DNA of 37,319 nt from Phycisphaerae bacterium (GTDB lineage: Bacteria; Planctomycetota; Phycisphaerae; Phycisphaerales; SM1A02): positions 1-37,319 of the forward strand of contig JABHWX010000057.1 in assembly GCA_018657585.1 (NCBI GenBank). The letters run 5' to 3'. This document shows, piece by piece, positions 33,960 through 37,319 of this stretch. Both the position numbers and the translations under genes were made by a program. Below the pieces are notes generated by a model, which saw only the letters and a program-made list of their open reading frames with translations, searched no databases and was not told where the DNA came from. The first letter of the stretch is position 1; each line of letters starts with the position of its first letter.

Positions 33960-35140
33960 CGATCGCAATCTGCGTCGATTGGAATTTGCTGTTCAATATC
34001 AATTCCAAAACCATGCAGAGCCGTTAAGTGTTTTGGATGATTCGTAAGCAAGTTTAATTTCTTCAAGCCTAGGTCGCGAATTATTTGAACGCCTGTTCCA
34101 TAATCACGACGATCCATCGGATGCTCTGAAACAGTTAAATCTGGAACATTGAAATCAGTTTCAGGTCGTTGTATTTTTTGTAAGCGATCAATAAACTCAT
34201 CCCCATATTGTTCTGGTCGCATATATATTAGTGCACCCCTCCCAGTGGCCGCAATCATTCTCAGTGATGCTCGCAGTTCGCGACCGGATGGGTGATTAGT
34301 TGCATCAAAAATGTCTCCAAGTAAATTTCGTCTATGAACCCTGACAAGTGTGGGTTCCTCTATCGCTTTCGCCGTCCCGTATTCATCAAGTTCCCCAACT
34401 CCTCCAACAGTAAGAGCAAGATGGGGAACAGCATCAATGTCACTGTGGTACGCAATTAAATTAAAGGTGCCGTATGGTGTTTCGATTGGTGTGCCGCATC
34501 GTGGATCAATTCGACTGACAAGGCTTTCACGTGCAAGTCGATACTCAATAATTTGTTCTACAGAACACATCTTTAAAGAATGTTCTTCGCAAATTTTTTC
34601 TAAGTCTGGCACTCTTGCCATCTCACCATCTTCCTTAACAATTTCAATAATGACAGCGGAAGGTGTAAGGCCAGCAAGTTTGCAAAGATCGACCGAACCC
34701 TCGGTCTGACCGGTGCGAGCAAGTACCCCACCATCTCGCGCACGAAGTGGGTTTATGTGTCCAGGACGAACAAAATCGTCTGGTCTTGTGTTTGGATCAG
34801 CAAGCAGTTCAAGCGTCTTCACCCTATCCGCAGCAGAGATGCCTGTACTCACGTTGTGTCGCGGGTGCCCATCCACACTAATTGTAAATGGAGTACCTCG
34901 AACACTTGTGTTGTCTGAAACTTGGGGACCTAACTCAAGACGATCACAATCTTCACCAGTCATGGCGACGCAGAGATAACCACCACCGATACGAGTAAAA
35001 AAGTTGATGAGTTCAATATCAATATGTTCAGTAGCAACTACAAAATCACCTTCGTTTTCCCTATTTTCATCGTCCACAAGGACGATGACCTTCCCATCAC
35101 GAAGGTCGCTTATTATTTCCTCTATTGGTGCTAACGCCAT
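33956..35140 (-). CDS. RibBA-like: 3,4-dihydroxy-2-butanone 4-phosphate synthase plus degenerate GTP cyclohydrolase II-like domain (RibBX-like)
   Basis: N-terminal VLVDDENRENEGDFVVATE…GHINPLRARDGGVLARTGQTEGSVDLCKLAG; C-terminal LALTVGGV…LVRVHRRNLLGDIFDATNHPSGRELRASLRMIAATGRGALIYMRPE lacks the zinc cysteines. Confidence 0.9.
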   Translation of the reverse strand: MALAPIEEIISDLRDGKVIVLVDDENRENEGDFVVATEHIDIELINFFTRIGGGYLCVAMTGEDCDRLELGPQVSDNTSVRGTPFTISVDGHPRHNVSTGISAADRVKTLELLADPNTRPDDFVRPGHINPLRARDGGVLARTGQTEGSVDLCKLAGLTPSAVIIEIVKEDGEMARVPDLEKICEEHSLKMCSVEQIIEYRLARESLVSRIDPRCGTPIETPYGTFNLIAYHSDIDAVPHLALTVGGVGELDEYGTAKAIEEPTLVRVHRRNLLGDIFDATNHPSGRELRASLRMIAATGRGALIYMRPEQYGDEFIDRLQKIQRPETDFNVPDLTVSEHPMDRRDYGTGVQIIRDLGLKKLNLLTNHPKHLTALHGFGIDIEQQIPIDADCDR

Positions 35141-35184
35141 TCGCTTATTTTACTCGGTTTGGTGCCTGGCACTATGATACGCAG

Positions 35185-36288
35185 ATGAAAAAGCATCTGA
35201 ATTGGTTGATGGATATAACTGCTATTCCGACGGCTGCGGGTCAGGAGTGGCGAGTTGTTGATTGGGTTGAACAGTGGGTTAATAAACAAAAGGGTATTGA
35301 ATTTCGTAAAGACAAATTCGGAAACTTGATTCTCACCCAAACTCGCAAATCATCCAGAAAACCAATCTATATCACCGCTCACTTAGATCACCCTGCATTT
35401 GTGGTTCGTAAACAAATCGATGATCAACATCTCGAAATGGAGTTTAGGGGTGGTGTAAACGATGCTTATTTTGTCGGAGCCAAAGTCGAAGTGTTTGACA
35501 ATGAAGACAACCGTTACATAGGCACAATTCAATCGCTCGACGCAAAGGCGAAACCATTTAAGCGAGTTGTTGTGCAACTCAATAAAGGTGTTGCAGGAAT
35601 ACTGATTCAAGATGACATTGCTCGCTGGAGGTTCCCTCCTCCAGTTGTAAAAAACGGCTTGCTACATGCCCCCGCTTGTGATGATCTTGCGGGCGTTGCT
35701 GCAGCTGTTTGCGCACTCGATAAAATTAAAAAAATACCTGCTCTCGGAAACGTCGGTGTACTTCTAACACGGGCCGAGGAAATTGGTTTTGTTGGCGCAA
35801 TTGCTGCGGCGAAACATCGCTCAGTTCCAAAAACGTCGAGATTGCTCTGCCTTGAAACATCAAGAAGTTTTCCAGAGTCACCTATTGGCGGCGGGCCAAT
35901 TCTTCGGGTAGGTGATAAGACCAGTGTATTTGGACCTGAGCTTACGAACGCTGCAACTGAAATCATGAACGCGCAAAAGAATTTTTCTTGGCAACGAAAA
36001 CTAATGCCTGGTGGGACGTGTGAGTCCACTGCATTTTGTGGCTACGGTTTTCTTTCAACGTGTTTATGCTTAGCATTAGGTAATTACCACAACATGAAAG
36101 ACATTGATGGTGTTTTACAAAAGAACAAGCCCGCAAAAGTCGCTCCTGAAGTTATATCAGTGAACGATTTTCATGGGCTTGTTGATATGTTAAAAATTGT
36201 TTGCCGAGACTTAGATAAACCAAGAAAAACAACTCTGCGCAAAGGTCTCGAAACTCGGTTAACAATGTATCGCAAAATCCTTAGTTAG
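35185..36288 (+). CDS. M42 family (glutamyl aminopeptidase/cellulase-like) metallopeptidase
   Basis: ITAHLDHPAFVV…HAPACDDLAGVAAAVCAL…LTRAEEIGFVGA; likely start MKKHLNWLM at 35185 (track ORF starts at 35125). Confidence 0.85.
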   Translation: MKKHLNWLMDITAIPTAAGQEWRVVDWVEQWVNKQKGIEFRKDKFGNLILTQTRKSSRKPIYITAHLDHPAFVVRKQIDDQHLEMEFRGGVNDAYFVGAKVEVFDNEDNRYIGTIQSLDAKAKPFKRVVVQLNKGVAGILIQDDIARWRFPPPVVKNGLLHAPACDDLAGVAAAVCALDKIKKIPALGNVGVLLTRAEEIGFVGAIAAAKHRSVPKTSRLLCLETSRSFPESPIGGGPILRVGDKTSVFGPELTNAATEIMNAQKNFSWQRKLMPGGTCESTAFCGYGFLSTCLCLALGNYHNMKDIDGVLQKNKPAKVAPEVISVNDFHGLVDMLKIVCRDLDKPRKTTLRKGLETRLTMYRKILS

Positions 36289-37015
36289 ATAAAACAAGCT
36301 CAACCATATAATCGGCGGCTGCTTGGTCGTTGCCTTCCTCTTTCAATGTTTGAATGGCTACTATGAGTGCTGCGTTGCGGGATGAAGAGCCCATCGCTCC
36401 ATCTTCGATGATGGTTTCAAGAGCAGCCATTCTCGCTTCGCCCTCAAGCTCATCACGAATCATCTGAATTCCCAACATCGCTACTGCGTTTGAATCATCA
36501 AGGGAATGTGAGGCTCCTCTAAATAATTCAAGTTCATGCATAAACTCTCTTATTTCTGAGCCATCTTGTTCACCGTGTGGGTGCTCACCTAGACGTTCGC
36601 CGTGCAGATTCTTTCCATATCCACTGCGTATGTGTGCCACGTATTCTCGCATCCCATCCCTGTCTTCTGGTGGACCGCCTTGCAAATGCATCATCCGGTT
36701 CCTCATCTGCGGGTGGGGCATTTCTTTTCCATTTACCCACTTCATCAACTGTATTGACTCTTCATCAGCAACAGCCATGATTGCAATACTCATTTCTCCA
36801 TCGGTGACATCCAAATCGATATCTCCCATGATTTCACTGATGTCAATAGTTTGCTCTTCGCCATTCACAAGGACAATTATTTCACCGCTATCAACCTCAA
36901 CATCTACTTCCATTTCAGTTGGTTGTAATGTTGCTATTGTTGCATTCTTTGTTTTAGAACAGCCAGCGAAAATAAGTGTTGAAGTAATTGCAATAGTTGT
37001 TACTAGATATTTAAT
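36281..37015 (-). CDS. Hypothetical Met/His-rich lipoprotein; inferred ATT start gives MKYLVTTIAITSTLIFAGCSKTKN…
   Basis: In-frame extension of the track ORF (36281-36913) through a lipobox LIFAGC, with AAAGGA 7 nt upstream of ATT at 37015; no in-frame ATG/GTG/TTG at the signal-peptide start. Confidence 0.7.
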   Translation of the reverse strand: MKYLVTTIAITSTLIFAGCSKTKNATIATLQPTEMEVDVEVDSGEIIVLVNGEEQTIDISEIMGDIDLDVTDGEMSIAIMAVADEESIQLMKWVNGKEMPHPQMRNRMMHLQGGPPEDRDGMREYVAHIRSGYGKNLHGERLGEHPHGEQDGSEIREFMHELELFRGASHSLDDSNAVAMLGIQMIRDELEGEARMAALETIIEDGAMGSSSRNAALIVAIQTLKEEGNDQAAADYMVELVLSN

Positions 37016-37044
37016 GTATGTTTCCTTTGGGTTTGAACATACAG

Positions 37045-37067
37045 AATAGCGTCCTGCGCTATTTTTT
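37045..37067 (+). terminator. Intrinsic terminator on the + strand
   Basis: AATAGCG-TCCTG-CGCTATT perfect 7-bp stem followed by TTTT, in the intergenic gap. Confidence 0.65.
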
Positions 37068-37075
37068 ATTGCATT

Positions 37076-37319
37076 TTATTCTTGAACTCGTTGCAATTCA
37101 ATAGATAATTTGAGGATCTGGGTTTCAGATACTTTAATTGCTGAAATAACTACGCCGTGTGTTTCAATTATTTCGCTTTGCGCTGGTACGTGCCCCAGTT
37201 GAGCCAACACAAACCCTGCAATCGTGTCGTACTCTTCATCCTCTGGCAGTTCAAGCCCAAGCTCATCGTTAAAGTCATCAAGACTATATCGCCCATCAAC
37301 CTCAACGAGATTTTCATTA
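37076..37319 (-). CDS. C-terminal part of CorC/HlyC (CNNM-like) transporter-associated domain protein, truncated by the window edge
   Basis: Reverse-strand reading NENLVEVDGRYSLDDFNDELGLELPEDEEYDTIAGFVLAQLGHVPAQSEIIETHGVVISAIKVSETQILKLSIELQRVQE*; absent from the ORF track because its start lies outside the window. Confidence 0.88.
   Translation of the reverse strand, partial: NENLVEVDGRYSLDDFNDELGLELPEDEEYDTIAGFVLAQLGHVPAQSEIIETHGVVISAIKVSETQILKLSIELQRVQE

Follow-up and report, generated by a model that had tools for sequence, protein, structure and literature searches.

The infC gene is known to begin at a non-AUG start codon, which is autoregulatory and is conserved across genera. Additional studies have described non-AUG starts in other bacterial genes. 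In Streptomyces, sigR begins with a GTC codon and is repressed by IF3 (PMC5472188), and in Staphylococcus aureus the AUU of cvfC1, as well as the AUA of other reporters, operated at approximately 10% of the level of AUG in poor medium, with the natural AUU and AUA sites being both conserved and equipped with extended Shine-Dalgarno (SD) motifs (PMC13009471). In Listeria, natural changes of ATG to ATT or ATA in rsbW were found to reduce translation, with ATT having the largest effect; rare or flexible starts were present in <0.3% of core genes in that organism, and an AUU start fell below fluorescence detection in one reporter (PMC13068326).

Here we describe a predicted lipoprotein gene from a Phycisphaerae bacterium in which an ATT codon occupies the position of the start codon of its relatives. 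The window (the whole stretch of DNA that was analysed, 37,319 nucleotides in length) is a single contig of a 1.92 Mb assembly that comprises 232 contigs and is 88% complete, and the relatives named below are Phycisphaerales/Planctomycetota MAGs.

The start position of the lipoprotein gene

The lipoprotein coding sequence spans positions 36281..37015 of the minus strand (244 codons and a stop) and retains the invariant columns of its family. Around its start the minus strand reads ...CCCAAAGGAAACATAC ATT AAA TAT CTA GTA ACA..., and the frame opened by the ATT (37013..37015) translates as IKYLVTTIAITSTLIFAGCSKTKN..., uninterrupted by stops until the one at 36281, to give a product of 244 residues with the N-terminus (M)KYLVTTIAITSTLIFAGC. 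The SD-like AAAGGA that the initial annotation had placed 7 nt upstream of the ATT is present (37023..37028, minus strand), and its further statement that no ATG, GTG or TTG is available in frame nearby is borne out: the 20 open codons preceding the ATT in the stop-to-stop frame contain none, and none follows until codon 35. The sole oddity of the gene is the third base of its start codon, with the remainder intact. The pattern formed by the SD, the spacer and ATTAAA, which was chosen after the site had been seen, occurs once in the window against 0.02 occurrences expected by chance; homology furnishes a stronger argument against chance than that count, in that the start codons of the relatives fall in the identical column.

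A search of contigs with the single protein as a query returned no match, and a search with the family alignment returned 10 loci. Every one of the 13 genomes in the genus has the gene, beside corC, and weaker matches, to the C-terminal part of the protein, came from further genera of the taxonomic family. A comparison of starts that covered every congener with an N-terminus available in the data found ATG in the ATT column in 11 congeners and GTG in one (G006), with a purine-rich SD-like sequence upstream of each of these 12 starts. Because the starts of the relatives all lie in that column, the ATT occupies, by sequence comparison, the genuine start position, having arisen from ATG in a single species, which upholds the initial assignment of the start to this codon. 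That assignment had been accompanied by the proposal that an ATG or GTG in homologs would reveal a sequencing error; such codons were indeed found, but they belong to other species, whose proteins share approximately 35-50% identity with the lipoprotein, and they establish a derived state for the ATT without establishing an error. Divergence in both the signal region and the body is of the coding type (pS ~0.6-0.7 versus pN ~0.25-0.4), and synonymous sites are near saturation, so that this divergence speaks for long-term coding and not for recent selection.

The duplex formed by AAAGGA with a canonical anti-SD sequence, which was assumed, has a calculated energy of approximately -6.1 kcal/mol (relatives range from -5.1 to -10.0) and is among the weakest of the 13 family members compared. 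On these energies the SD appears ordinary to weak and not extended, and gives no impression of making up for a poor start codon. The mRNA leader is predicted to be unstructured, which favours initiation at the ATT.

The use of similar codons elsewhere in the lineage was apparent from infC, which was found in 12 of 12 congeners. Judged by SD position and a conserved N-terminus (loci L194, L198, L200, L201, L202 and L203), it starts with ATC in three congeners (G012, G002 and G010) and with ATT in two (G011 and G008), and with ATC in G016, a member of another genus of the family, in each case behind an SD. Since infC of relatives starts in this way, the translation machinery of the lineage is able to initiate at such codons. 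These starts extend a known pattern to the Phycisphaerales, and IF3 autoregulation through a non-AUG infC start probably extends to this group as well. A search for infC in the genome that carries the lipoprotein ATT did not find it, probably because of a gap in the incomplete assembly.

The protein product and its surroundings

Codons 1-18 (36962..37015, minus strand) encode a signal peptide with the lipobox LIFAG ahead of a cysteine, Cys19 (36959..36961, minus strand), that is invariant across the family alignment, and the signal peptide aligns with MKTILTTIAIGSVMIIGG-C and similar sequences in congeners; the lipoprotein signal originally recognized in the translation, with its LIFAGC lipobox, is therefore supported. 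The short n-region, hydrophobic core, lipobox and invariant cysteine are shared with known lipoproteins that carry type II signal peptides and are SPII substrates. The mature part differs from those proteins in that searches of Pfam, NCBIfam and the PDB found no family or relative for it. The predicted structure is poor (mean pLDDT 51), being fairly confident solely in a C-terminal five-helix part (residues 153-243), and a fold search of the PDB with that structure found nothing at E <= 0.001, so that no function is claimed from structure. Searches of viral contigs for the lipoprotein, and of Rfam for an element, returned nothing.

Together with loci L013-L020, the gene at 36281-37015 represents an exported Met/His-rich family whose repeats vary (MREHMM..GG is one of them) and which matches no Pfam family. 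The C-terminus of the family is conserved and helical, and its genes lie near corC and ribBA; from composition and neighbourhood, a role in envelope metal handling may be guessed at. In G007 (L021, L007), the repeats of the homologous gene are interrupted by a run of N, and the apparent split of that gene into two hits is due to this assembly gap.

The upstream neighbour is the C-terminal end of a CorC/HlyC-type protein (37076..37318, minus strand; Pfam PF03471, E 1.1e-19). Downstream lies a convergent gene (35125..36288, plus strand), 68-87% identical in congeners, which we take to belong to the M42-type peptidase family. The order CorC, lipoprotein, convergent M42-type gene and ribBA is kept throughout the genus, and the present gene occupies the same place between corC and the convergent M42/ribBA pair. 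Upstream of the lipoprotein gene, a -10-like TATTCT (37043..37048, minus strand) falls inside a motif of approximately CGTTAT[C/T]CTG that is kept 5' of the gene in most congeners; this upstream comparison suggests a candidate promoter element, and a scan for the sigma-70 consensus did not list it. A small inverted repeat, AATAGCGCAGGACGCTATT (37045-37063), between corC and the lipoprotein gene, overlaps the TATTCT and was terminator-like in a loose scan.

Explanations for the ATT codon

An organism that actually carries ATG might be represented here by an assembly or base-call error, or by a consensus sequence in which a minor allele was fixed. The difference amounts to one base, all congeners display ATG or GTG, and the ATT sits approximately 305 bp from a contig end in a fragmented assembly, so that a single bad base is conceivable. 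Arguing against such an error is a comparison of 586 kb of the organism's own genome (approximately 31%) with 998 kb from congeners, in which approximately 205 genes had testable start regions. Of these, all but the lipoprotein gene have a standard start close to, or exactly at, the position expected from homology, with no second start loss, and the 63,377 codons that were aligned contain no genuine nonsense or frameshift change; had random error or decay been at work, it would more often have left traces elsewhere. (Other flagged missing starts were rejected as antisense frames, as internal domain alignments, or for an ATG just downstream, and two apparent internal stops in G000 proved to be an antisense frame and a stop 5' of the real start.) A hand calculation, in which each unit of substitution rate was taken to yield approximately 0.126 nonsense changes in a codon and 2.33 start losses in a gene, indicates that uniform random substitution in the sample would generate approximately 16 nonsense events for each start loss. 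The combination of one start loss with no nonsense disfavours random error and better fits a tolerated real change (a likelihood ratio of approximately 16:1, for an observation that was selected), and we regard an error, the leading alternative to our preferred explanation, as unlikely, if worth serious consideration. The mutation might also be real and have produced a null or near-null allele in a gene at the onset of decay, given that AUU is a poor start, which in a Listeria reporter gave no detectable fluorescence (PMC13068326), and that the SD has not been strengthened; however, the gene is otherwise intact with its invariant residues (a very recent mutation would look alike) and is kept across the genus, and this outcome seems improbable.

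Initiation elsewhere is given very little weight. It would involve either coupling or frameshifting from a nine-codon, out-of-frame ORF (ATG...TAA, encoding MFKPKGNIH; 37011..37040, minus strand), or the use of the ATG at 36913 to produce a cytosolic protein. The ATG at 37040 lies outside the lipoprotein frame, the TAA of its ORF (37013-37011) overlaps the ATT by one base, and a +1 shift would yield MFKPKETYIKYL..., a plausible signal N-region. Yet the relatives, whose starts all fall in the ATT column, did not show this ORF when their upstream regions were compared, and it is probably a chance occurrence; the SD of its ATG is badly spaced, and that ATG may precede the start of the transcript if the TATTCT serves as a -10 element. 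The ATG at 36913 (36911..36913, minus strand; codon 35) is aligned to an internal Met (EM[DE]VEV) in most congeners and to Ile in two, is preceded by no SD-like sequence, and if used would forfeit the conserved lipobox, all of which agrees with the earlier view that it is not a start.

The explanation that we favour, with somewhat better than even confidence, is a real but weak, lineage-specific change of the start codon from ATG to ATT, which would lower synthesis of the Met/His-rich lipoprotein. A single G-to-T change would have converted ATG to ATT in one species; an ordinary SD at the correct spacing, and an unstructured leader, would still position fMet-tRNA on the AUU; and the lipoprotein would be made with its signal peptide and with fMet as its first residue, at a much reduced yield, presumably under IF3 discrimination. 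The ATT is likely to be real in the organism, and we infer that the AUU is used and that the yield is low. If so, gene callers limited to ATG, GTG and TTG would misannotate the N-terminus of the lipoprotein and drop its export signal; comparison with sister genomes, as seen here, offers a route to true starts.

Comparison with described non-AUG starts

The lipoprotein gene and infC both combine a near-cognate AU[U/C] start with an SD, and they differ in that the lipoprotein ATT is restricted to one genome and the lipoprotein is not known to be connected with IF3. The cvfC1 (AUU) and ccpN (AUA) genes of S. aureus likewise pair AUU or AUA with an SD (PMC13009471), although the ATT described here is neither conserved nor accompanied by an extended SD. 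Relative to the regulatory class of non-AUG starts represented by infC, sigR and ccpN, the codon does lie at the true start position, but the non-canonical start is not conserved (11 ATG and one GTG in congeners) and the SD is not a strong or extended, compensating one (at -6.1 kcal/mol, it is one of the weakest pairings in the set of 13). Because both conservation and a strong SD are missing, the lipoprotein ATT is not placed in that class, and the hint of infC-like regulation in the initial annotation found no support.

The working of the ATT at the level of the ribosome would be the same as in the regulatory class, and special regulation of the lipoprotein through it is not indicated. Were the ATT fixed in the species and the envelope lipoprotein responsive to IF3, it would represent species-specific translational control outside of the translation apparatus in the Planctomycetota, which we consider quite improbable; most likely, it is a curiosity that involves no new mechanism. 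If real, it would add one more natural replacement of ATG by ATT, in an uncultured (marine) planctomycete lineage. While the rsbW changes in Listeria were established by experiment, and the present case is drawn from sequence in another gene and phylum, the two resemble one another in that a lineage-specific, single-base change puts ATT in place of a standard start, in a gene that is otherwise intact and has an ordinary SD, with a lower yield to be expected.
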